DNA of 64,000 bases from a virus, in IMG/VR virus record IMGVR_UViG_3300042516_002090, positions 1-64,000 of that record. The stretch is one strand, 5' to 3'. The first letter of the stretch is position 1. Each line of letters opens with the position of its first letter. The position numbers were made by a program, and so were the translations under genes. Below are positions 2,675 through 28,900 of the stretch, one piece after another. Under the pieces are notes generated by a model. The model saw only the letters and a list, made by a program, of their open reading frames with translations. It searched no databases and was not told the origin of the DNA.

Positions 2675-3046
2675 ATGAAAATTACATTCACAAACGAAGA
2701 ATCACAGCAACATTTCTTGTCTGCAATGTGCAACGGCCTTGGTTACATTTCCGATTACGGCCTTCAATTAAGTTACAAAGAAGCAGAGTACAAATCTGCA
2801 AAAAAGAAGCTAGAATCCCCATGTTGGGAGGACGTACTGCTTCAGATTCTTATCGACGGCAATTCCCTATCCCTTTATGATGGTAATGACGACGTGACGC
2901 ACACCATTACAATTCAAGACGTATACAATCGCTTGCCGGAAACACCAATGCGACATCTAATGGACATGGTAAATCAGCAAGATGATGCAGTTACTGCGGA
3001 TGTAATACTTCAAACAATATTCCTTGAGGAAGTAATCTACGGCTAA
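2675..3046 (+). CDS. hypothetical early protein
   Basis: 123 residues, acidic, not recognised. The C-terminal half is helical (DVYNRLPETPMRHLMDMVNQ). Its stop codon at 3044-3046 is directly followed by the predicted hammerhead ribozyme at 3047, so its mRNA would end with a ribozyme-generated 3' end if cleavage occurs. Confidence 0.6.
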   Translation: MKITFTNEESQQHFLSAMCNGLGYISDYGLQLSYKEAEYKSAKKKLESPCWEDVLLQILIDGNSLSLYDGNDDVTHTITIQDVYNRLPETPMRHLMDMVNQQDDAVTADVILQTIFLEEVIYG

Positions 3047-3099
3047 GGTTAACTGACGATGGCTTTATTAGCCGAAACTGCCTTCGGGCAGTCTTAACC
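3047..3099 (+). ncRNA. hammerhead ribozyme candidate (type I)
   Basis: The 53 bases fold as a three-way junction with the hammerhead core in the right order. Stem I is GGTTAA (3047-3052) with TTAACC (3094-3099). The core CTGACGA (3053-3059) matches CUGANGA. Stem II is GGCT (3061-3064) with AGCC (3070-3073) and loop TTATT. The core GAA is 3074-3076. Stem III is ACTGCC (3077-3082) with GGCAGT (3087-3092), capped by TTCG. C3093 is the cleavage-site nucleotide after GU, giving the classic GUC triplet. The open stem is stem I, so the type would be I. One oddity is T3060, an extra unpaired base between A9 and stem II. The element begins right after a stop codon and ends 16 bases before the next ATG. 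The match is seen in sequence; activity is untested. Confidence 0.75.
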
Positions 3100-3115
3100 A
3101 CAAAAAACAATTCAA

Positions 3116-3283
3116 ATGAAAAAGGCAGTTATTTTTTTGGTAGTGTTCATTGCATCACTATTTCTAGCATCAGAATTCGACAAGGAAGTACTACTTATCG
3201 AGTGTGTACAAGAAACGCAAGGTAGCGACGCGGACTGCGAAGAATGCTACGTTAAAGTATATGGTAAACCTTCAAACGATTAA
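3116..3283 (+). CDS. small secreted or membrane-anchored protein
   Basis: 55 residues starting at ATG 3116. It opens with a clear signal peptide or single membrane helix (MKKAVIFLVVFIASLFLAS). A short acidic mature part follows, with cysteines at about positions 30, 41 and 44 (ECV, DADCEECY), which could form disulfides outside the inner membrane. It lies 16 bases after the hammerhead element, so cleavage there would leave it with a 22-base A-rich leader. Function unknown; a small exported early phage protein could alter the cell envelope. Confidence 0.7.
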   Translation: MKKAVIFLVVFIASLFLASEFDKEVLLIECVQETQGSDADCEECYVKVYGKPSND

Positions 3284-3428: not shown

Positions 3429-3941
3429 ATGACAACTCATCAACAAAACATCATCGACTCTTTAGTCGCAGAATTCAACAGAATCAACACACCAATCCCT
3501 AATGGATTCGCTCGAATCGGCGAGGCACTCGAACATTGTGACGAATGGAATTGCCTTGTAGCTGGAGTAAGAGCATGCAACGCAAGGTTTGAATACCTAC
3601 GCGAGGAAATGATTGAAACCGATTTCTTTCGACTTAAGGAAGAATGTAGGCTTGCCGGGCTTGATGGTATTCGCATCACGATGGGCGACGATTATATCGC
3701 GCTCGATGTAGATGGTGATTGGATTCACACGGATGATAGAATTACAATCTACTACAGATTCGAAAGGAAGCACCATAGCAGTAGTACAAACAAATCGATT
3801 GATGAATTCAAACAAATCCGAATTCATTCATATCAGGCCTCATCTACTTACGCGGATGACTTCGCGTCCATAGACAGCTTGTTTCAACACGGCACATTCT
3901 TCCGCAATTGGACGAAACTCATAGAAAAGTCACGCAAATAA
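3429..3941 (+). CDS. hypothetical early protein
   Basis: 170 residues, soluble, not recognised. The N-terminal half appears helical. The centre is beta-rich with acidic loops (MGDDYIALDVDGDWIHTDDR). The start ATG is preceded by AATAAACAAG, an A-rich context seen again before the next gene and typical of this phage in place of a Shine-Dalgarno sequence. Confidence 0.6.
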   Translation: MTTHQQNIIDSLVAEFNRINTPIPNGFARIGEALEHCDEWNCLVAGVRACNARFEYLREEMIETDFFRLKEECRLAGLDGIRITMGDDYIALDVDGDWIHTDDRITIYYRFERKHHSSSTNKSIDEFKQIRIHSYQASSTYADDFASIDSLFQHGTFFRNWTKLIEKSRK

Positions 3942-5039: not shown

Positions 5040-5052
5040 CAACTCTTAACAA

Positions 5053-5086
5053 GTGGGTGCAGTATTTAAACTTATATTGCACCCAC
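5053..5086 (+). repeat. perfect 9-base inverted repeat
   Basis: GTGGGTGCA (5053-5061) and TGCACCCAC (5078-5086) are exact inverse complements around a 16-base AT-rich spacer. The spacer ends in TTATATTG, close to a -7 box. No T-run follows, so it is a poor terminator. An operator or a structured mRNA leader of the following gene is more likely. It lies between two early genes. Confidence 0.5.
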
Positions 5087-5106
5087 ATTTAAACACTAAC
5101 AGCGTC

Positions 5107-6068: not shown

Positions 6069-6341
6069 ATGAAAGATATCACATCATTTCACCACTATGG
6101 TTTTGCCGAATGGCTAAACGAGGCTTGCAAAGAGCAAGAGAATCAAACCCTAAACGTAAGAGTCTACTACGACGACGTCGAAGAGTGCTACTACATCGAC
6201 ATTCACAATGCTGATGATCTAGATGAGTTTAATGCACTAGAGTCCTTCCACTATATAGACGTGCCGGAAATACAGCACGACGTAGCGGAGGCAATGAATC
6301 AATTTCCAATTCACATAAATCTAATTCGCAATGACAACTGA
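6069..6341 (+). CDS. hypothetical early protein
   Basis: 90 residues, strongly acidic (VYYDDVEECYYIDIHNADD), not recognised. It overlaps the next gene by 11 bases, so the two are translationally coupled. The charge is like that of DNA-mimic or inhibitor proteins, but many unrelated phage proteins look similar. Confidence 0.55.
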   Translation: MKDITSFHHYGFAEWLNEACKEQENQTLNVRVYYDDVEECYYIDIHNADDLDEFNALESFHYIDVPEIQHDVAEAMNQFPIHINLIRNDN

Positions 6342-6522
6342 AGAAGAAGTAATTGAATTCATCCAACGCACAATCATGGACGAATGGCGAGTGGTCATGA
6401 AGTATGAAGCCCAACTTAAAAAGCCGGAATGGGAAGGCGACAAAATCATTCAGGACTGCGTAGATAATGCCAAGGAGCGCATCAAAATTTTTACAATAAT
6501 CTTAAACAAGTTTGAACAATGA
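6331..6522 (+). CDS. small helical protein
   Basis: 63 residues, almost entirely predicted helix with alternating charge (TEEEVIEFIQRTIMDEWR, NAKERIKIFTIILNKFEQ), perhaps a short coiled coil. Overlaps both neighbours (11 bases upstream, ATGA downstream). Not recognised. Confidence 0.5.
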   Translation: MTTEEEVIEFIQRTIMDEWRVVMKYEAQLKKPEWEGDKIIQDCVDNAKERIKIFTIILNKFEQ

Positions 6523-6869
6523 AATACCACAACTATGACGATTGGAAACTATCCAACCCCGACGACGATGGCCACTACATCGAAGATACCGACGCCATTC
6601 AAGAGGACGTCTACTTCAAGTACCTTCACAATCGTGACAGACGCTGGGCATACGGAGTGATAAACAAGGACGGGTATTCAATTACCATTACAAAGTACAC
6701 ATCGATTCCGGCCATCGACGTTGATTGGATGGACGCCACCGAGTTTAATCAGAACGACGAGACTAGCCGCTTGCGTATACACTACAAGCAATTCACCTTC
6801 ATTGACAGGGACGAGTTCGTCGAGGCGTACAAGGATGCCATAAACCAACTAAACAAAGTAATGCTGTGA
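6519..6869 (+). CDS. hypothetical early protein
   Basis: 116 residues, acidic and aromatic (MKYHNYDDWKLSNPDDDGHY). The start overlaps the previous stop (ATGA) and the stop overlaps a GTG at 6866 (GTGA). Not recognised. Confidence 0.55.
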   Translation: MKYHNYDDWKLSNPDDDGHYIEDTDAIQEDVYFKYLHNRDRRWAYGVINKDGYSITITKYTSIPAIDVDWMDATEFNQNDETSRLRIHYKQFTFIDRDEFVEAYKDAINQLNKVML

Positions 6870-6934
6870 GAAGGCTCTTGGACAGCATAGTGTTTACCCT
6901 AATGATGTGGCTCTTAAAAGATATAGACAAATGA
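6866..6934 (+). CDS. possible 22-residue coupling peptide
   Basis: A GTG-started frame of 22 codons that exactly bridges two genes. Its start overlaps the upstream stop (GTGA), and its stop overlaps the ATG of the next gene (ATGA at 6931-6934). The peptide is hydrophobic in the centre (LLDSIVFTLMMWLL). The reciprocal overlaps suggest ribosomes travel through it. It may serve coupling rather than make a functional protein. Confidence 0.35.
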   Translation: MRRLLDSIVFTLMMWLLKDIDK

Positions 6935-7251
6935 TAATAGACTATCGTACTGGCGACGACATCGTCGCAATCAAAGACCATTCACAGGGTGTGTTCCTCA
7001 AAGGGGATGTGTTCACGGCCATGGCTCTGCAAAGAAACAGCTGTGGATGCATTCTCGTTGTGGACATCGGATTGAAATCTGACAGGCCATTTACCAAGTG
7101 TCCTGTGTGCGACATGAACGACGAGAAGACCGACAACGTGTGGTGGGTTGACGCCCGTGCGTTTCGCAAGCTGCTGACTAAATCAGAGGAGGCCGACCTC
7201 GCGGACGTGCTTGCCGGGGTGTTCTCTGAGGAACTAAATAGTCTTAATTAG
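6931..7251 (+). CDS. small cysteine-containing protein, possible zinc binder
   Basis: 106 residues from ATG 6931, preferred over a GTG at 6907 because it overlaps the stop of the bridging frame. Four cysteines (NSCGC, then KCPVCDM) could bind one zinc. They lie between a beta-rich N-terminal half (DDIVAIKDHSQGVFLKGDVF), like a small SH3-type barrel, and a helical acidic tail. Probably a small nucleic-acid or protein-binding adaptor; exact function unknown. Confidence 0.5.
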   Translation: MIIDYRTGDDIVAIKDHSQGVFLKGDVFTAMALQRNSCGCILVVDIGLKSDRPFTKCPVCDMNDEKTDNVWWVDARAFRKLLTKSEEADLADVLAGVFSEELNSLN

Positions 7252-7262
7252 ATTGGGATCAA

Positions 7263-7291
7263 TTGATACCATTGAAGTTACACTATATTTG
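7263..7291 (+). promoter_or_regulatory. early promoter before 7300 gene
   Basis: TTG at 7263-7265, 18 bases, TATATTTG at 7284-7291. The ATG follows after eight bases. It starts a new transcription unit inside the early block, after the gene ending at 7251. Confidence 0.6.
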
Positions 7292-7299
7292 CAATCTAA

Positions 7300-7497
7300 A
7301 TGACAAAGCTATTTAAAACTAAAGATGGGTATGAGGTTGTCAAACATTCGCGTGACGTTTATGCAATCGTAGGCAAGCGCGTGAAGTACATAGGCAAGGT
7401 CTCAGCCAACTACCAGTCAAGCGGACGACTGCTCAAGAGTATACCAAACGAAATCAAAACAATCTTTTTTAACATTCAACGAAATGAAGAGAACTAA
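7300..7497 (+). CDS. small basic protein
   Basis: 65 residues, basic (KHSRDVYAIVGKRVKYIGKV), not recognised. First gene after the promoter at 7263-7291. It overlaps the next gene by 14 bases. Confidence 0.55.
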   Translation: MTKLFKTKDGYEVVKHSRDVYAIVGKRVKYIGKVSANYQSSGRLLKSIPNEIKTIFFNIQRNEEN

Positions 7498-7789
7498 ATT
7501 TTCAATTGACGTAATCAGCGACGTTTACGATGGTTACACGAACGGACAACGGTGGAACGGATGGGAAATGCCATACCTGAGCAAGGCGGAGGTAATGCGC
7601 TTCCTTGCAACCGAGGCATTCGACGAGGACAGCGCGACCACATTCCGGTGGGAAGGTGAAACACTTATCGAAACCGACCGAGACGAGCAATGTAGCGACG
7701 TCGTGCCGACAACCACCATCGACGGCCAAACCTACTACCGAATCGGAAACGGCTGGGTGTGGGAAGAAGTAAAAACAACTTACAATTAA
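7484..7789 (+). CDS. conserved-type hypothetical phage protein
   Basis: 101 residues. Contains YDGYTNGQRWNGWEMPYLSK followed by a helix, then beta strands ending in YYRIGNGWVWEE. I have seen similar TNGQxWNGW proteins in phages and plasmids; they have no known function. It overlaps the upstream gene by 14 bases. Confidence 0.55.
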   Translation: MKRTKFSIDVISDVYDGYTNGQRWNGWEMPYLSKAEVMRFLATEAFDEDSATTFRWEGETLIETDRDEQCSDVVPTTTIDGQTYYRIGNGWVWEEVKTTYN

Positions 7790-7799
7790 ATAAATCAAC

Positions 7800-8795
7800 A
7801 TGAATTGGAACCTCCAACAACTATGGAATGAATGCGTTTATTCCCAACAACGTGCGCTAGAGCCACGAGACTACTGCTATGCATCTGAAATCGGACAGCC
7901 CCTCGTTGACCGATACCTCAAGATGAAGGCCGTTACACCAACCAATCCACCAAACATGAGAAGCCTCCGCAAGTTTGAAGCGGGTAACCTTGTCGAGTGG
8001 GTAGTTCGATACGTCCTTGAACGTGCCGGGCTGATCAACAATACACAAGAGCGTGTGATGGTTGAGTATCCGAATATGCTCAAGGTATCGGGTCGATTAG
8101 ACTTCCTTGCGGGTGGCAAGATTGACATCGAACGTGCCAAGCAAGACATCACATCGTCTCATCTGCCTGAGTCTATCCAAGCATCCTCCCTATACATCGC
8201 AGAGAAACTATATGAGAAGTTTGGTGACAAGGAGCTAGAGAAGAAAGTGCTAGAGATTAAATCGTGTTCATCCTTCGTAATGGACATGATGGAAAAGACC
8301 GAGAAACCGATTAAGCACCACAGACTTCAGCTGTTCCACTACATGAAGGGACTCGGACTCAATGGGGAGTTAGTATACATCTGCAAGGACGACCTCCGAA
8401 TGATGTGCTTCCAGTACGAGCCATCAGCTGAACTAGAGGCCGAGTACATCGCAGACCTTGAGAGAATAACAATCTTCTTCAACAACTCCGTTAGACCACC
8501 ACTAGAACCGCTCATTGTGGTCGAAGATGGCAAGTTCAAGAAGAACTTCGGCATCGAGTATTCAAACTATCTGAAGTTCCTATACGACTTCGAAGAGCCA
8601 CGCGACTACGCTGACTCAGTTAAGTCTCAGGTCGCACGCTGGACTCGTGTGGTTGCCCGATACGCTAAAGGCGAGAAGATAACCGCAAAGAATGAGGAGG
8701 TACGAGCAGAGATTGAGTTAGCCGGATACAACTTCGATAAAATAGTAGAACAAGCCAAGAAGTTTGGCGTAACTGAAGAAGAAGAAGAAATTTAA
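7800..8795 (+). CDS. PD-(D/E)XK nuclease, RecB/Cas4-like
   Basis: 331 residues. The middle holds the ordered motifs of this nuclease fold: GRLDF with Asp101, then LEIKS with Glu152 and Lys154, then LQLFHYM with Gln177, the motif that helps position DNA in RecB-type nucleases. The N-terminal part (SEIGQPLVDRYLKMK, then RKFEAGNLVEW) matches the start of phage-encoded RecB-like exonucleases. A role in DNA end processing for recombination is likely, since NinB and NinG genes follow. The C-terminal 100 residues are helical. No iron-sulfur cysteine set as in Cas4 is evident. Confident of the fold, less of the exact role. Confidence 0.75.
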   Translation: MNWNLQQLWNECVYSQQRALEPRDYCYASEIGQPLVDRYLKMKAVTPTNPPNMRSLRKFEAGNLVEWVVRYVLERAGLINNTQERVMVEYPNMLKVSGRLDFLAGGKIDIERAKQDITSSHLPESIQASSLYIAEKLYEKFGDKELEKKVLEIKSCSSFVMDMMEKTEKPIKHHRLQLFHYMKGLGLNGELVYICKDDLRMMCFQYEPSAELEAEYIADLERITIFFNNSVRPPLEPLIVVEDGKFKKNFGIEYSNYLKFLYDFEEPRDYADSVKSQVARWTRVVARYAKGEKITAKNEEVRAEIELAGYNFDKIVEQAKKFGVTEEEEEI

Positions 8796-8807
8796 TAATT
8801 AAACCAA

Positions 8808-9026
8808 ATGAAAATACAAATCGAAACCAAGTTCTCCATAGGAGACACAATCTTTTTCATCGAGGATGACAAGATTAAATTCGGGGTAATGTACAAGATG
8901 GAAATTACTATCGAAGAACACGAACACAGAACGTATCTATTTGCGCGAGACCAAGACAGAAATGCTTCGGTAGTGCCGGAAAGAAGAGCGTTCATATCAA
9001 GAGAACAACTAATCCAATCCCTATGA
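8808..9026 (+). CDS. small KOW/SH3-like protein
   Basis: 72 residues. The N-terminal part KFSIGDTIFFIEDDKIKFG, followed by VMYKMEIT, looks like a small barrel of the type x-F-x-x-G-D-x-V. Not recognised beyond that. It overlaps the next gene by four bases (ATGA), within the recombination gene cluster. Confidence 0.5.
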   Translation: MKIQIETKFSIGDTIFFIEDDKIKFGVMYKMEITIEEHEHRTYLFARDQDRNASVVPERRAFISREQLIQSL

Positions 9027-9256
9027 AAATTCAAATCGAAAAGGGTGTGCCTGCACCCAAGCAAACCACAAGATCAGGCAAGTACCCATTCAGGGACATG
9101 GTAGTAGGCGACTCCTTCTTTATCAAGGACGAAGACCCTGAGCCTATACGCAAGAAGATATCAGCGGCCGCTTGTATGTTCTGCAAGAAGAACGATGACT
9201 ACAAATTCAAGACCCAGGTCTTCGATACCGGGGTCAGAGTGTGGAGGATACAATGA
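9023..9256 (+). CDS. DUF7303-like small phage protein
   Basis: 77 residues. The start MKIQIEKGVPAPKQTTRSGK, then YPFRDMVVGDSFFI, and the end TGVRVWRIQ match a widespread small phage family that carries a GKYPF..M.VGDSFF block and ends in GxRVWR. It usually sits near replication or recombination genes, as here (four-base overlaps on both sides, next to NinB). Role unknown. Confidence 0.6.
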   Translation: MKIQIEKGVPAPKQTTRSGKYPFRDMVVGDSFFIKDEDPEPIRKKISAAACMFCKKNDDYKFKTQVFDTGVRVWRIQ

Positions 9257-9687
9257 AGCACAGCGCAGTAATTACACCACAGGGGGCATTGCGAATCTAC
9301 AATCGCCCCCTCTTCGAAGAGGAAGTCAGAGCCATGTCCCGTGAAAAGGACTTGGCTGTGACCATCGAAGTCAAACTGAAGAAGCGTTTCCGCTCGGACG
9401 TGCAGAACGCATACTACTGGGGCGTGGTCGTGGCCATGATATCGCAGAGACTACGCGAGCTTGGACACGATGTTGACCGAGACCTCACGCATGAGTTCCT
9501 CAAGGGAAGGTTTCTCTACACGGAGTTTACCGACCCAACATCCGGCGAGGTAATGAAGATTCCACGCAAAACGTCGGAGCTTGCAACGGAAGAATTTATG
9601 GAATACGTTGAACACGTCAAGCAGTTTGCGGCTGAGACGTTGGACATTTATATTCCTGACCCGAACGAGCAACTTGAGATAGGTTAA
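9253..9687 (+). CDS. ninB: NinB-like recombination protein
   Basis: 144 residues from ATG 9253, overlapping the previous stop as ATGA. Contains RSDVQNAYYWGVVVAMISQR (residues about 47-66) and a helical region, the pattern of lambda NinB/Orf. That protein is a recombination mediator that binds single-stranded DNA and helps load recombinase. The position between a RecB-like nuclease and, further down, NinG supports a recombination role. Confidence 0.65.
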   Translation: MKHSAVITPQGALRIYNRPLFEEEVRAMSREKDLAVTIEVKLKKRFRSDVQNAYYWGVVVAMISQRLRELGHDVDRDLTHEFLKGRFLYTEFTDPTSGEVMKIPRKTSELATEEFMEYVEHVKQFAAETLDIYIPDPNEQLEIG

Positions 9688-9690
9688 ACC

Positions 9691-9777
9691 TTGGACACAT
9701 TCAAAAGAAAAGACAGAGAAAAGAAACAAGTCAAGAAGAAACCTAAAGAGAAGAAAAGAAAAAGCCTCCCCCCGTGA
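9691..9777 (+). CDS. possible 28-residue very basic peptide
   Basis: A TTG-started frame three bases after the NinB stop. The peptide is mostly Lys, Arg and Glu (DTFKRKDREKKQVKKKPK) and ends at TGA 9775-9777. Its purine-rich codons and placement suggest a small nucleic-acid-binding peptide. The non-ATG start and short length leave it doubtful. Confidence 0.3.
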   Translation: MDTFKRKDREKKQVKKKPKEKKRKSLPP

Positions 9778-9886
9778 AAAACAAACTACCCCGCCCCACA
9801 AAGGGGCAGCTACCCGATCCAACATACTCACGTATGAAGTTTGCCTCTTGCACCGACAGGGCTGATTCGGATGATGGGGAACGGGT

Positions 9887-9986
9887 AAAAAAAAAGCCCT
9901 CGTCTGGCGGACCGAGGGCAATTCTGAGTAAGGTTTTAATCTTACCTCCCACATTACACTGCCGCCAAACACTGTAATGTGAGAAC
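9887..9986 (-). ncRNA. predicted small RNA, about 100 bases
   Basis: Read on the minus strand from about 9986, it has three successive hairpins. The first is a 9-base perfect stem (TGTAATGTG at 9973-9981 with CACATTACA at 9950-9958). The second is GTAAG/CTTAC (9928-9932 with 9941-9945). The third is an intrinsic terminator (GCCCTCG 9896-9902 with CGAGGGC 9913-9919) followed on the minus strand by nine T (9887-9895). A promoter lies just upstream at 9991-10022. No minus-strand gene lies near, so the cassette looks self-contained. Its target and role are unknown. Confidence 0.6.
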
Positions 9987-9990
9987 GCAA

Positions 9991-10022
9991 CAAAAGTATG
10001 ACTACAAAAATGTAGAAGTCAA
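9991..10022 (-). promoter_or_regulatory. promoter of the minus-strand small RNA
   Basis: On the minus strand: TTG (complement of 10020-10022, inside a long T-run), 21 bases, then TACTTTTG (complement of 9991-9998), which matches TAnnTTTG. Predicted start near 9986, at the foot of the first hairpin. Confidence 0.5.
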
Positions 10023-10031
10023 AAAAAATAA

Positions 10032-10062
10032 TTGCAATAAACCATCACACGAGTTATCTTTG
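10032..10062 (+). promoter_or_regulatory. promoter of the PP-loop gene
   Basis: TTG at 10032-10034, 20 bases, TATCTTTG at 10055-10062. The ATG at 10067 comes four bases later, so a leaderless or nearly leaderless mRNA is predicted. It is almost back-to-back with the minus-strand small RNA promoter. Confidence 0.65.
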
Positions 10063-10066
10063 TAAT

Positions 10067-10939
10067 ATGAAAAAAGCAATATGTTGGTGGAGCGGTGGAA
10101 TAACGTCTGCCGTGGCCTGTAAACTGGCGATAGATATGTTTGGTGTTGATAACTGCAAGGTTATCATGATTGACACCAAGAACGAGCATCCGGATACCTA
10201 CCGATTCAAGGACGACTGCGCCCTGTGGTACGGAAAGGAAATAGAAACCATCACGGCAATCGGAAACAAGTACGAGAGCATACAAGACGTGTGGACTCAG
10301 CACAAGTCCCTCAACGTGGCAAGCGGGGCAATCTGCTCTACTATGCTCAAACGCAGAGTCAGGGAGAGGTTTCAGAAGGACGAGGACTACGACTACCAAG
10401 TGTTCGGCTTTGAGTTCGATAAGAAAGAATTCAACAGAGCTAACTCCCTTACGATGAATCACCCCAAGGCCAAGCCGATATACCCATTACTCATGTTCGG
10501 GTACGACAAAGACCATTGCATCAAGATGGTGCAGAACGCCGGAATAGAAGTACCTGTAATGTACAAGATGGGCTTTAGGAACAACAACTGCTTTGGGACA
10601 GGGTGTGTACAGGGCGGGATAGGATACTGGCAGAAGATGAAGCGGGACTTCCCCGACAAGTTCGACGCGATGGCCGACATGGAGTGGAAACTAACCGAGA
10701 TGAAGGGAGAGCCAGTCACCATGCTCAAGGATCAGGGCAAGGACGCCAAGTCATCAGGCAACGTGCTTGTCTTCCTCAAGAAACACCCCGACTACCCAAA
10801 CTTGAAATCCCTCGATGACATAGAGGGAAGGGAAGTTGAACCCCTTTTTGAATGCAATGGGTTCTGCGGAACGAACGACCTCAACGAAAGAACATCAACC
10901 GAAAACGAAATCAATTACGGATTATTCTCAAACTTATAA
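10067..10939 (+). CDS. PP-loop ATPase, PAPS-reductase-like
   Basis: 290 residues. The start MKKAICWWSGGITSAVACKL carries the PP-loop (SGG-x-TS, residues 9-14) of the adenine nucleotide alpha-hydrolase superfamily. That superfamily includes PAPS reductase, DndC and tRNA thiolation enzymes. A cysteine-rich part (NNCFGTGCVQGGIGYW, about residues 175-190) and a C-terminal FECNGFCG are typical of phage-encoded members annotated as PAPS reductase-like. The substrate is not known. Possible roles are DNA or tRNA sulfur modification or nucleotide metabolism. No partner modification genes are seen nearby. It has its own promoter and begins a transcription unit. Confidence 0.7.
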   Translation: MKKAICWWSGGITSAVACKLAIDMFGVDNCKVIMIDTKNEHPDTYRFKDDCALWYGKEIETITAIGNKYESIQDVWTQHKSLNVASGAICSTMLKRRVRERFQKDEDYDYQVFGFEFDKKEFNRANSLTMNHPKAKPIYPLLMFGYDKDHCIKMVQNAGIEVPVMYKMGFRNNNCFGTGCVQGGIGYWQKMKRDFPDKFDAMADMEWKLTEMKGEPVTMLKDQGKDAKSSGNVLVFLKKHPDYPNLKSLDDIEGREVEPLFECNGFCGTNDLNERTSTENEINYGLFSNL

Positions 10940-10941
10940 AA

Positions 10942-11205
10942 ATGAAAAAAACATCTTTAACAATTTTAATCGCGCTATCCCTACTTGCCTGCAAGAAAGA
11001 GGAGCCGGAACCCGCACAACCAACACAACAATGCAACTGCGGTACTATCGCTAACGACGGCATCGACTCGGCCACCAACTGCTATTGGTTGGAGATACGA
11101 AACGAATGCTCCGGCAACAAGAAGAAGTTCTGCTTCGACCAAGACATTTGGATGAACAACTATGTCGGCGACAGATTCTGTGTAACTAACGTATCATCTT
11201 GGTGA
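10942..11205 (+). CDS. cysteine-rich lipoprotein
   Basis: 87 residues from ATG 10942. The N-terminus MKKTSLTILIALSLLACKKE has a signal sequence with lipobox SLLAC, so the mature protein starts at Cys17. The mature part is Cys-rich (QQCNCG, NCYW, NECSG, FCFD, RFCV), which suggests disulfides in the periplasm or outer membrane. Possible superinfection-exclusion or envelope protein; no family recognised. Confidence 0.65.
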   Translation: MKKTSLTILIALSLLACKKEEPEPAQPTQQCNCGTIANDGIDSATNCYWLEIRNECSGNKKKFCFDQDIWMNNYVGDRFCVTNVSSW

Positions 11206-21240: not shown

Positions 21241-24200
21241 TTATTTTGTTTCGATGCCGTATTTTTTTCGTAACTCGGTTACTATTTGCTCTCTTTTTTT
21301 GTAAACCGCCTCTTGCATACCCTTCTCGCTCATGCCCTGCACGTCTAGATCGTACATCTTTTGCCAAAACTCATAACGAACATTTTCGATTGCGTCCTGG
21401 CGATAGCTACTCAACAACTCAATCTTTTCTGCCTGTGAAGCAGCGTCTATACTTGACTTATTGCTATTTATTAGTTGAGCGGTTTCCTTGTTGATTATAA
21501 GACTAAGTGACTGCTTGAAGTCGTCGTCCATCTCAAAAGGTTCCCTCTCCGAGCCAACATTTACCTCTATCCAGTCCTTGGCATCCCATCTAGAGTAAGT
21601 CTTAGGGAACCACTTCTCCTTTGTTAGGTTATAATACGGGCTGTTTTCAACGTGGCTTGTTCCGTCCTTCCATACACTTTCTGGAAGAAGAGCCTTGAGT
21701 ACCGGGTTCGATGGCTGCACGTACACAGGCTCGCCGAAGTGGTCGTACATCAGACCTCCGTTGGTGTCCATGAATACATCAGTAAAGAAAATATCCGACA
21801 CTATGTTATCAACCGCCCCGCTTCGTTTCTCCTTTTGAATACCCTTCCACGCCTCGTAGTCCTTCTTAATGTTTTCATACAGGGTTGGGGAGAACGATGT
21901 TTCGATACCGTCTAAGAAAAATATCTCCAACGCTTCAGCCGCCTTTGCCTCGCCATATCCACCGTATAGTTTTTCTATCGCTCTCTTTGGCGCGGACATC
22001 TCACTACCTGTTAGCTGGGCGCCGACAAGAGCAAGTATCTTGTTAAAGCCGACGGTTGTTTTATCCCCTTCACCAAACCTTATATCGTTTGATACCTCGC
22101 CAAGGATTTTACCTATTGCCCCAAACACAGGGCCTGTCAATGACAGAGGAATATTTTTGCCTGCTATGGTTACACTGTTTGGCTCCGCACCCTCAGCCTC
22201 CATCTCAGCTCTTTGCTTGCTGTCCTCGGCCGATCCATAGAATTTGATCCACGCATTAGGGTCGAGTTTCACTTCATCGTCATCCTCGTCGCCAAAGTCA
22301 AACAATGACGCGATAAGACCACCCCAAATCATTGTAGCCACTACGTTTTTAAACGCTCTGGATATCTTCTCCTCGTTAGTTAGAGGTACGGTGGTTGCCT
22401 TTCCGTCTATGTATCTAACCTTAACCCCAGTAATCTTTTTACCCGGTATGGCCGCTATTACAGCAGGAACAACAGGTATGGACTTGTAGAAGTATTCTGC
22501 CATTACCGTGTTTAATCGGATGAAGCCTAGCACCGTACTCAGGGTAAGTCTTCCAAACGCAACAACCGGGTTGTCCGTATCTCGAAATGGAGTTGCCTTG
22601 GATATGAGGTTGAACACAGCTGCTCCAGCAAGTGTTTCCGGTTTTTGAAGAAGGAGGGACTTCCTGGCCTGGTGAGCCATCTCGTCGATAACTTCTTTAG
22701 GCATTGCGTTATGAACCTTGTCGCGAAGCTTTCTCTTTGCCCAACCCTTCGGTAACGACTCTCCGTTGGCAATCCTTTCTGCCGCCTCTTGAGCAACCTC
22801 GCTTTTGAAATTGTTTATCTGATCAGGACCTGCCTGTATAAGCTCCTTAAGTTGTTGATTCCAAACCGCTGACCCCTTCTTCATCTTGACACCTGACTTC
22901 TTATTCACCATGTCGAGGTAATTTTCAGCCTCGATGTAGGTGTAAATGTCTTGCAAGGCGCCGCCCATAAGTATATCCTGGGCGCTCATGAGTACCATAC
23001 TTATCTCCGAAAGGGCAGGCAAGAACTTGCGCTTTCTATAACCGGAACTCATTAATTGACTAAAGGACTTTAAAAAGGCTTCTGTTGCGTAACGCGCTCT
23101 CCTGCCTCCCTTCTTGTTTATGAAGTCGCTTAGTATCTGAGCGTACTCCTTCTTTGTAACACGATAGATTGCGCCGTGAGCTTTTTCCTCAGGTCTTTCA
23201 AGCATGGTTGTTTCACCAAACCTAGACTGTGGTTTTTCCCACTTCGCGGCAACGGTTTCCCATCCCATTGTGGCGCCCTCGGCCCTCATCATTTTAGCAA
23301 ACTTAATCGCCCTGGCCATTCTAGCCGGGTTGTAAAGAGCCGTGAACGCACCGTGCTGAATGCTCGATACTACAGCACCCACACCGGATGCCATGATCGC
23401 CGTCTTAAATATATCCGAAAGCGCGTTCGTATAGAACTGCTCGGTAAGCCAGCGGCCAACAAGTGCGGCAGTGGTCTCGTCGTACTCACTAAGGATGTCG
23501 TTGATGTACCTGTTAATCTCTTGGTACAACTCCTCTCCGGGCTGGAGTGCTTGCAGCCTATCAAAGTATCCCTGCAACTTCACAATGTCGCTTTGAGATA
23601 TCCCCTTATAGCCAAGCGTGTCCAAAAGAGCGGCCTCAAACTGAGAATCAGAAACCTGTCCCTTAGAAATAGCCCTGATAACTCCCTTCTTCACACTCTC
23701 GGCGTCCTTAATTCCCTGCATGATCGAGTCTATGCTCTGCTTTTTGGCCTTGATTTTTTCATCAACCTTCTCCGCAATCAAAGGCTCGATTTCAGTCTGT
23801 AGCTGTGAGGCGTATGCCGGGTCTATTCCAAGGTTGTTGACCAGCGCCTCTGCAAGGGTTTGTATTTTCGCGTTTTGATTTGTGATGTGTTCGGCGGCTA
23901 TACGAGCAATCTCCTTGTCCATATCCTCCTTGCTAAGCGATGCGGCTGCGGCTCTTTTTTCTACACCACCAATTGGCATCTCAAGCAGGTCAGATACTAG
24001 CGCGTCAATCTCGTTCTTGATTGCCATCTTGGTCGCAGCGTCTAACTTCTCGTTAGCGTCTACGTTTGCCTTGGCAATATTCATGGCCTTGGTCACCATC
24101 GACTCAACCTGGGCCTTGTTGTTTAGGATTGTCTTGAGCCTGTCCTTTGCCTTCACCTTCTCGCCACGGCTCTTGGCCATGACGTAATCAGGGTCGTTCT

Positions 24201-25922: not shown

Positions 25923-28900
25923 TTACGGGCAACCGTCGGTTTTATCTGTTATCACACCTGCTTCTTGCAGCTGCTTGTTAATGTCGCTAATATTTTTGTA
26001 AATATACTTCAACTTTGGGTCGAGATCCAAAATTTCATCAATGGCATCACGAGCTGCTGCACGTTCGGCACGGTCCCCGTCCTTGATCTTATAGTAATTT
26101 TCAACAATACTACTGATGTTTGCCGCCAACCCGGAGGTAGGCGCTGCCTTTGGAGCCTTTGGGGCCTTTGGAGCCGGCTTCTTAGGTAGGCCCCTAGGTG
26201 TAACACCAAAGTCCTCCTTAATGAACTCATCGAATTGATTCTTATACTTCGGATTAAGTTCATTGTACCAGTCCTGGCTACCAACAAAGTCATTAACAGC
26301 TATCTGGGCGTCCGTGCCTGATGCAATCGCCTCGTCAATGGCATCCATTGCGTCCTCCATCAACCTCTGAATCTCGTCATTGCTTCGGTTAATCATGGAC
26401 ATCTGACCTTCCTGGGCGACCTGTTTAGGTTTATTAAACTCCGCCTCACGCTTGGTTACCTCTGCTGCTTTGATTTTTGCTGATGGCATTGCGCCCATAA
26501 TGGCCTTAGCCGCCTCAGGTTTTCCTCGCAGGCCAAACTGTGTAGGGTTCACGTCCTTACCTGTACCCATCGGCTTTGACTCGTAGAATATTGAACGAGC
26601 GTCAAGCATTTCATTTAGATACTTGACTGACTTAATTGTACCGCTAATAACGTAGTTATAAGACTTATGGTGGTACTCGTCGGCCTCCTCTGTCTTTACA
26701 ACCTTCAGGGACTCAGGATCGTACTCTACAAATCCTACAACGTCTCCGTACTCGGCGTTGGCAAACGCTGGTTCGTTAGTGTAGTCAAGAATAGTCTGAT
26801 CCATTTTATAGGTAGCACCTCCGCTAATGGAAGGAATACCAAACTTCAGGCTGTTACCTACATTGAATACTTTTTTGAAGTAGCTTGATCTTACGTCATA
26901 GGTAGAATCAAAAAGTTCGTCATAAAGCTCTTGAACCGAATTGAATCTTATACCCTTTTTATAAATGGCGTCTATCTTGGCCAGGGCCGTGTTCTTTCGG
27001 GCAGCTATCCCCTTTGAAGACTTGTTAAACTCTGCTGGAGTTATTTTTCCATCCTTCAGCGACTTCTTTATTTTGTTTTCTTCTTTCTCTATATCGGCTA
27101 ACTGTTTTCTTATAACCACCGTCCCCGGTCTGTCCTCTAAGAGTTTTTCATAAAATGGAAAGTCCTTTTGAAACGCTGTGTTGAGGGGATTGTTTATCGC
27201 GTCCAACAGTTCGTTTATGAACTTCTTCGCCTCGGCCTTCTGCTGTGGAGTTGACTTGCTACTTGCCAGTGTGTCTTGGTGCGGCTTCAGTGCCTTATTC
27301 AACAAGTCAGCGTAGTGTGCAAGCATCATCTTGTTACCCAGAACTCCAGTAGATGCCTGAGCGCCTATAGCCGCAAGCTGACCCTTCTTTAAAGCATTCA
27401 ATAGCTTGTTTGCCCCATCCTCGTCGGTGGTCGCCCACACAGAGCCATTTAGTATCTCACTTATTTTACCTGAGATTAGGTTGGCCAGCTCCTTTTGGTT
27501 CGCCCATATCGGGTAAAATCCGCCACCTCTGCCATAAAAAGGTACTCCTGTAGGAGACACAACATCCCCCACAACCTGCTTGTCACCTAAGAAACCAACA
27601 GCTGTTTTTCCGTCGTACTCCTTAATGTCGGCGTATTGGATCAGGGAGCTATCAAATGGACGTTCTACAGTGGTATCTTTTACCACGCCTCTGTTGGTTT
27701 TGTCGCGGTTAAGAATAGTGAACTGACCACCATTATTACCCAGGATAATGTTTTCGTATCGCTTCACGTTTTCCTTACCAACAACATCACCTATCGTCCC
27801 GCCATTATTCATGGCAAACGAAAGCTTCTGAGCAAACTCTCTGAACTTTTTAGCAGACGCGTTCTTGTCCACAGGGTTATAGCCAAACATTCTGGCTATC
27901 TTGTTCATTATGTCAACGAGTAGGTCCTTGAGGCTTTTGTTAAGCTCAGTAACATTAACGTCCCCGGTAACAATTTTAGCAAGCGTCTCTACGACAATCT
28001 CGTCCTCAATGGTTTCGCTACCCTTTAGTTGGTATCCTCCCGTGTCCTTCACCTCGTTTATGATATTAGCAATAGCGCCGTTTACCTGCGCCTCGCCCTT
28101 AATCCCGTCTACAATAGCCTGATAAAGCTCAGGGTTTGTGTTGCGGATGATATTTATCACCGGGTGAATACCCTCGTGAAACGCGATAACCCTACCGCTT
28201 GAACTCTTGAGTCGGTCGCGGTTAATGTAGATTACACCGTAGTCTTTGCTGGCAAGGAATATACCATCGATACTACCCTCCACCTGACGCTGTTGACCGA
28301 GCCTCTGTGCCTCGTTGTCGTCAATAATTTTTACATCAATGCCAGACTCCTTGACAAACTCTTGAATTCTTTCAGCGGCGTTCTCACCATCGGTCTCGAA
28401 CATCTTAGCAATACGTGCCTTGCCTGTGCGCTTTGGCGCCTCTTTTTTAGGAGTCTTAGCTTCGCTTTCAAGAACAGACTTAACGTCCTTTGCAAAAGGA
28501 GTTGAGCCATAATCTTTTTTAAAATCATCAAAAGTAAATTCTTTTAAATCATAAGCTAAATGTTCGGCCCAGTTAATACCTTTATTAACAAGCAAAGAAC
28601 TTAGCTCGCTGCTAAATCCATATTCATCTTGCAGATACTTTATTATTTTTTTTGGATCACGATTCCAAATAGGCATATCCAAAACCTCAACCGCACTAGC
28701 TGCCTTTTTTACATATTCAAATGCTTTTTCGTAGTCCTCTTTAGACGCCGGGATAGTATCATATTCATATGCTTCTTTTAGATCCTTAACGGATTTTATT
28801 GCTGCTTCTTTTGCTTCCTCTAATGAACTAAATGTTTGAACGTTTTCATATCGTGTATCTAAATTAAATTTATTTCGCACACTTGTCTTTAAAACGTATT

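Follow-up and report, generated by a model that had tools for sequence, protein, structure and literature searches.

The viral DNA analyzed here, a 64,000-nucleotide (nt) stretch (the window; IMG/VR record IMGVR_UViG_3300042516_002090, positions 1 to 64,000, whose numbering is used for all positions), carries on its plus strand a 53-base element, at 3047 to 3099, that is very probably a self-cleaving hammerhead ribozyme of type I topology. Its sequence places it in a widespread sub-family of phage ribozymes predicted to split phage operon transcripts, in this case after C3093. Inspection and folding of the sequence recover all hammerhead parts in order, in agreement with a first-pass annotation of the window that had described every element, a cut between 3093 and 3094 that would leave a 22-nt leader, and a position directly after a stop codon. 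The ribozyme starts right after the stop codon at 3044 to 3046, which adjoins stem I, and ends 16 nt before the ATG at 3116. The parts of the element, which together give its full string, and the two genes flanking it are as follows.

2675 to 3046, plus strand: upstream gene, 123 amino acids (aa), with a weak match to phrog_2355.
3044 to 3046, plus strand: TAA stop codon of the upstream 123-aa open reading frame (ORF); the conserved A beside stem I is the final base of this codon (3046).
3047 to 3052, plus strand: stem I 5' arm, GGUUAA; open helix of six pairs, outer pair G-C.
3053 to 3059, plus strand: catalytic core C3 to A9, CUGACGA; a decoy core yields no stems (see below).
3060, plus strand: extra U (U10) at the junction of A9 and stem II.
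3061 to 3073, plus strand: stem II, GGCU/AGCC (3061 to 3064 and 3070 to 3073), with pentaloop UUAUU, which has the U-N-A-N-N signature.
3074 to 3076, plus strand: catalytic core G12 to A14, GAA.
3077 to 3092, plus strand: stem III, ACUGCC/GGCAGU (3077 to 3082 and 3087 to 3092), with a UUCG loop.
3093, plus strand: C17 of the GUC triplet; cut at 3093/3094 predicted from established hammerhead chemistry.
3094 to 3099, plus strand: stem I 3' arm, UUAACC, the first bases of the predicted 3' cleavage product.
3094 to 3115, plus strand: predicted 22-nt A-rich 5'-OH leader, starting UUAACCA, with the conserved A after stem I at 3100.
3116 to 3283, plus strand: downstream gene, starting at ATG 3116, 55 aa, with a hydrophobic N terminus and no informative relatives.

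Several features identify the class. The element has a CUGANGA ... GAA core with A15.1-U16.1 and H17, and three helices surround this core and show covariation, although the 100% pairing seen in the alignment described below is partly owed to the selection of its members. Both ends of the element lie in stem I and stems II and III are closed by loops, which is the type I permutation. The element departs from the strict textbook consensus, in which stem II sits directly on A9, because U3060 intervenes. The first-pass annotation had correctly seen this extra U, but its description of the base as a deviation does not hold, as it is a normal feature of the family: among the 74 nonredundant members of the group to which the window element belongs, the position is U in 55, A in 1, and absent in 18, and forms with and without U10 occur within single phages (L008, L035, L059, and L077). 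The plus-strand hammerhead of the viroid CChMVd has an extra A10 between A9 and 10.1, which is moderately harmful (De la Pena and Flores 2001, summarized in PMC3705267), and changing this A10 to U, the best base, raises the trans-cleaving rate 3- to 4-fold (PMC3705267). The viroid and the phage family thus share one unpaired residue at this point, which is A in the viroid and almost always U in the phages. Because the viroid ribozyme is active despite its additional residue (PMC3705267) and the phage family itself contains both forms, the extra residue does not define the class, and the element is a variant.

The first-pass annotation had also considered chance assembly very unlikely, and two controls agree with this. 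A loose descriptor (at least four, three, and four pairs in stems I, II, and III, respectively; both strands) gave 6 matches in 400 first-order Markov random windows of 64 kb; in the real window its sole match is 3047 to 3099, the actual stems of which exceed these thresholds. In a search of IMG/VR, the pattern fixed the core, three stem II pairs, and GTC and did not demand stems I and III. Among the matches listed, 78 of 132 also form stems I and III (at least four pairs each), versus none of 42 obtained with a decoy core in which A9 was replaced by T.

The relatives fall into two groups. The first, which includes the window element, comprises the 74 members mentioned above and is characterized by a stem I of six pairs (72 of 74), a four-pair stem II, a pentaloop, and a variable stem III; C17 is C in 64 members and A in 10. 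The second consists of 54 GC-rich siblings with a GC-rich stem I of 4 to 5 pairs, a stem II of 5 to 7 pairs, and larger loops. Carriers of the second group include L024, L041, L064, L067, L118, and L122; its members show the same stop/start placement as the first group, and an A follows stem I in 52 of 54. A covariance model built on 22 other phages, with the window excluded, scores the window element at 72.7 bits with an E-value of 2.8e-19, a value that flatters the match in that the training set was retrieved by a pattern derived from this same element. Elsewhere in the 66.6-kb record the model had no match, and 43 other phage loci totaling 403 kb likewise gave none. A MAFFT alignment of 59 relatives was left out of the model because variation in stem III length misaligns the 3' arm.

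Covariation, which the first-pass annotation had proposed looking for in related phages, is extensive. In a set of 22 members of equal stem III length, two-sided changes are present at 13 of 16 pairs (5 of 6 in stem I, 3 of 4 in stem II, and 5 of 6 in stem III), and RNAalifold returns the hammerhead unprompted on this alignment. The covariation is supported independently by BLAST-identified orthologues in five pelagiphages, in which the core is unchanged and the stems carry compensatory changes: HTVC131P has GUUGUA/UACAAC in place of the stem I GCAAAA/UUUUGC, and HTVC201P has U-A in place of a C-G pair of stem II. The pattern that had been named as speaking against a ribozyme, core bases changing while the stems drift, is not what these comparisons reveal; the core is fixed while the stems drift with compensation, which strongly supports a hammerhead at an mRNA junction as the reading of the aligned sequences. 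Anatomy, covariation, placement, and phylogenetic spread are all matters of direct observation in these data.

Conservation extends beyond the core. In an unselected subset of 34 nonredundant members, found by a pattern fixing neither loop II nor the flanks, an A immediately precedes stem I in 33 (58 of 59 in a wider set of relatives) and another immediately follows it in 33, stem I has G-C as its outer pair in all 34, and loop II has U at position 1 in all 34 and A at position 3 in 33. We infer that the A residues flanking the six-pair stem I would replace the usual stem I loop, docking with loop II.

The placement of the ribozyme at gene junctions is equally regular. In 68 of 74 first-group members, stem I begins no more than 10 nt from the end of an upstream ORF of 50 aa or longer, and in 67 of 72 a start codon follows stem I at a distance of 10 to 45 nt (median, 19). 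The stop codon falls within the ribozyme itself in 30 of 72, as a UAA in stem I (20) or a UGA in the core (10), judged by stop position. Compared with random sites in the same loci, a stop codon within 60 nt upstream is found for 86% of ribozymes versus 14% of sites, and an ATG within 60 nt downstream for 92% versus 27%. The gap that holds the ribozyme in the window operon is 69 nt long, all of it ribozyme and leader; the other plainly annotated gaps are mostly 4 to 26 nt. One other long gap, at 5040 to 5106, contains a 13-pair hairpin (GUGGGUGCAGUAU/AUAUUGCACCCAC; -22 kcal/mol, z-score -6.25) with no T-run, which is perhaps a second processing or regulatory site. The proteins flanking the ribozyme mostly show no relationship from one carrier to the next (of 124 clusters, 97 are singletons), and a conserved target gene was accordingly rejected. 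Nearby in the window, a GP88-family protein (PF17338) is encoded two genes upstream of the ribozyme (1851 to 2648), and a PAPS-reductase-like gene lies in the small-gene region (10067 to 10939). When relatives were sought through neighboring proteins, the search returned a single distant GP88 relative (L002), whose locus is without such a ribozyme, and none for the 123-aa gene; querying named phages with 20 kb of nucleotide sequence gave no match.

The window terminase and portal proteins are nearest, at 22 to 24% identity, to those of Flavobacterium, Cellulophaga, Maribacter, and Tenacibaculum phages; these named relatives are phages of Flavobacteriia, which fits the earlier attribution of the window to a Bacteroidota phage. 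Two of four cultured phages of Flavobacteriia tested carry the element, in the small-gene region; it is present in Cellulophaga phage phi19:3 (E-value, 1.5e-8) and in Flavobacterium phage elemoA_13-1B (E-value, 4.7e-12). It occupies 21763 to 21823 on the minus strand of phi19:3, a phage of Cellulophaga baltica #19, and 27352 to 27421 on the minus strand of elemoA_13-1B, a phage of Flavobacterium sp. BAL314. The annotation of elemoA_13-1B also places a 35-aa ORF over the ribozyme on the other strand (27343 to 27450; L205 1844 to 1951), which is probably a false gene prediction. The copies in cultured pelagiphages, carriers of which include Pelagibacter phage HTVC019P, lie upstream of the phage RNA polymerase gene; in HTVC019P, which infects HTCC1062, the element spans 2942 to 3014. 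The same pattern was found in 52 viral contigs versus two genome contigs (L192 and L193) among 257 Gb of genome contigs, and neither of the two passed the stem test, suggesting that this form of hammerhead occurs mainly in nonintegrating phages. Common phage ancestry as the sole cause of the element was rejected, as just 8 of 22 carrier records, a set that includes several fragments, showed terminase homology.

These data lead us to propose the following course of events. The ribozyme would be transcribed within a rightward operon of small, presumably early, genes. Once RNA had been made past 3099 and the ribosome had left the upstream gene, stem I would close, and the closed RNA would self-cleave at the junction of C3093 and U3094. 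Of the two products, the upstream mRNA would keep its whole reading frame and end in the compact body of stems II and III with a 2',3'-cyclic phosphate, and the downstream mRNA would begin with a short A-rich 5'-OH leader retaining the ribosome-binding region. General RNA biology makes it plausible that both new ends slow decay. Cleavage in the cell, the chemistry of the ends, and the effects on stability and expression are thus what we infer, and the likeliest purpose would be to convert one long transcript into separately stable, separately translated units without a host enzyme. In the early region of T7, ribonuclease III (RNase III) sites cut the polycistronic early mRNA near the RNA polymerase gene region. 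These sites divide early phage mRNA between genes, as the window element would; they differ from it in needing a host protein enzyme and in being structurally unrelated. As the pelagiphage copies precede the RNA polymerase gene, the region of the T7 RNase III sites, the ribozyme may by analogy be their host-independent counterpart. With the upstream stop codon abutting the ribozyme or contained in it, a ribosome terminating there would have to block stem I. It is possible, if rather unlikely, that this constitutes a translation-gated switch, in which transcripts would stay joined under heavy upstream translation and be split when translation slackens; if true, this would couple mRNA architecture to ribosome traffic during host takeover.

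Several observations weigh against an active hammerhead at this site. The search with Rfam hammerhead models that the first-pass annotation recommended came back empty at the element: Rfam 15 gave no match there, either at gathering thresholds across the window or locally at an E-value of 10. On the whole record, RF00163 (Hammerhead_1; gathering threshold, 34 bits) and RF00008 (Hammerhead_3, in which stem III is open) remained below threshold, and RF03152 (RAGATH-1; cutoff, 56.3 bits) gave just an unrelated place at 10.2 bits. The relatives are missed as well, with nothing at threshold in 13 loci holding dozens of copies; the best subthreshold matches were to RAGATH-1, in L035 (34.8 bits), and Hammerhead_1 reached 28.6 bits in L064. 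The same search called a type II hammerhead (RF02276) in the Roseobacter phage CRP-7 (L195 570 to 633; 50.1 bits, cutoff 37), and the Rfam miss therefore lies with the models and not with the search procedure. In CRP-7, a cultured phage, this type II hammerhead overlaps the start of gp02 (619). The folding of the naked RNA is also unfavorable. With its flanks (3040 to 3110), the RNA has its free-energy minimum in another fold, CGGCUAA/UUAGCCG, which is 2.0 kcal/mol better, and its hammerhead pairs have a mean probability of 0.39, one of the lowest values across the 74 relatives. This alternative hairpin may slow folding of the hammerhead; the relatives are without it. A role for the competing fold as a conserved switch was rejected, the upstream flanks not being conserved among relatives. 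In addition, stem I is without a classical docking loop, so that fast cleavage at cellular Mg2+ would rely on the putative contact between the two flanking A residues and loop II. Finally, the nonconserved neighbor genes indicate no particular target gene.

That same diversity of neighbors favors an alternative in which an active hammerhead has recombination, or modular gene exchange, as its main job. The ribozyme would then be part of a shared DNA cassette for swapping small accessory genes, and RNA cleavage would be secondary or would just keep the inserted genes from disturbing each other. The ribozyme persists while the flanking proteins change, and several copies per phage have partly shared stems, as such a cassette would require. 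However, compensating stems around a fixed core are not expected from selection on DNA homology alone, and stems II and III vary among the copies of a single genome; we therefore regard this explanation as improbable.

The stable hairpin pair that forms the minimum-energy fold of the naked RNA in place of the hammerhead (z-score, -3.3) would suit a plain intercistronic structure, such as a terminator, a pausing site, or a stabilizer of the mRNA 3' end, that merely resembles a hammerhead. This is highly improbable, as stems alone would not keep CUGANGA, GAA, A15.1-U16.1, and C/A17 fixed. Moreover, the competing upstream arm is unshared, and the 5' flanks show no greater likeness within genomes than between them. 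A terminator in particular was rejected, since the hairpin has no following T-run and is absent from a terminator scan.

Carrier phages commonly have multiple copies in gene clusters, up to seven per phage, and in multicopy carriers (L035, L059, L075, L077, L110, and L173) stem I arms resemble each other more closely within a genome than they do across genomes (0.75 versus 0.55). Tandem copies with such interchangeable arms might religate after cutting to give circular single-gene RNAs; the type I topology allows the fragment ends to re-pair, and circles were considered in earlier work on phage hammerheads (PMC3088659). This work looked for circles and found none (PMC3088659), and stem III is likewise more similar within than between genomes, so that shared ancestry suffices, although the likeness does not itself decide between shared ancestry and selection for interchangeable ends. 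Circular RNA from the window phage was rejected, as the single ribozyme copy in the record makes the scheme unworkable there, and for the family we give the idea scant credence. Two observations on multicopy loci may be added. In L035 (approximately 6200 to 11150, minus strand), each of seven hammerheads is directly followed by a small hairpin, AGTC..GACT or AGTG..CACT, with paired changes, and the predicted 5'-OH leaders would thus begin with a conserved structure. In L024, a Twister-P1-like match (3805 to 3890, minus strand; 45.1 bits, E-value 6e-7, under the 67.2 cutoff) lies near six hammerhead copies. As for a hammerhead-like sequence arising by chance, random windows yield roughly one match to the loose descriptor in every 67, but the real stems are longer than its thresholds, and the recurrence of the family, its covariation, and its flank and placement signals mean that this vanishingly unlikely explanation is already refuted by the relatives.

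The preferred reading, a self-cleaving ribozyme that would split operon transcripts, has clear antecedents. Perreault et al. described in 2011 phage and prophage hammerheads covering all three types, with clusters of ribozymes flanking single small genes of varying identity, and proposed the splitting of long phage transcripts as a role (PMC3088659). The first-pass annotation's reading of a hammerhead at an mRNA junction, an arrangement that recurs at stop/start junctions in many phages, is supported; the use as an mRNA processing site, which it called noteworthy, had been put forward in 2011. Three of the 2011 clusters cleave in vitro and one in E. coli (PMC3088659), and this activity of consensus phage-type hammerheads provides, by analogy, a precedent for cleavage by the window element. 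Like the 2011 clusters, the present family has several ribozymes around single small genes of varying identity; those clusters came largely from prophages, near integrase genes, whereas the present form was found in the 52 viral contigs. HHphage of the haloviruses HF1 and HF2 lies in the early region, 13 nt upstream of a start codon, and a mapped 5' end falls within three nucleotides of its cleavage site (PMC3088659). It resembles the window element as a lytic-virus hammerhead shortly before a start codon and differs in having an insertion near C3 and in belonging to a salt-adapted archaeal virus group. Hammerhead_1 (RF00163) shares with the window family an open stem I, closed stems II and III, the core, and a GUH cleavage triplet; the family differs in its six-pair stem I, which has no internal loop and an A on each side instead, in the U-N-A-N-N pentaloop on a four-pair stem II, and in the U10 of most members. 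RAGATH-1 (RF03152; PMC11300833) likewise has a short open stem I before CUGAUGA, an A-rich flank, and a bacterial setting. In RAGATH-1, however, a pseudoknot with an upstream helix IV replaces stem II, with an AUAAAA linker (PMC11300833), whereas stem II of the window family is a true four-pair helix with two-sided changes. What appears to be new is the combination of a loop-free six-pair stem I with flanking A residues, a U-N-A loop II, the usual U10, placement on stop codons, and presence in cultured phages, although part of the sub-family may be among the 2011 alignments (PMC3088659).

What began as a single motif is thus a defined sub-family missed by current Rfam models, with a placement rule, on a stop codon and one ribosome-binding leader ahead of the next start, and a conserved signature outside the core that suggests a specific tertiary contact. 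As relatives occupy the same type of junction, including in lab-grown phages (phi19:3, the Flavobacterium elemo phages, and HTVC019P), the proposed role of the ribozyme as a built-in mRNA cutter is now directly testable.
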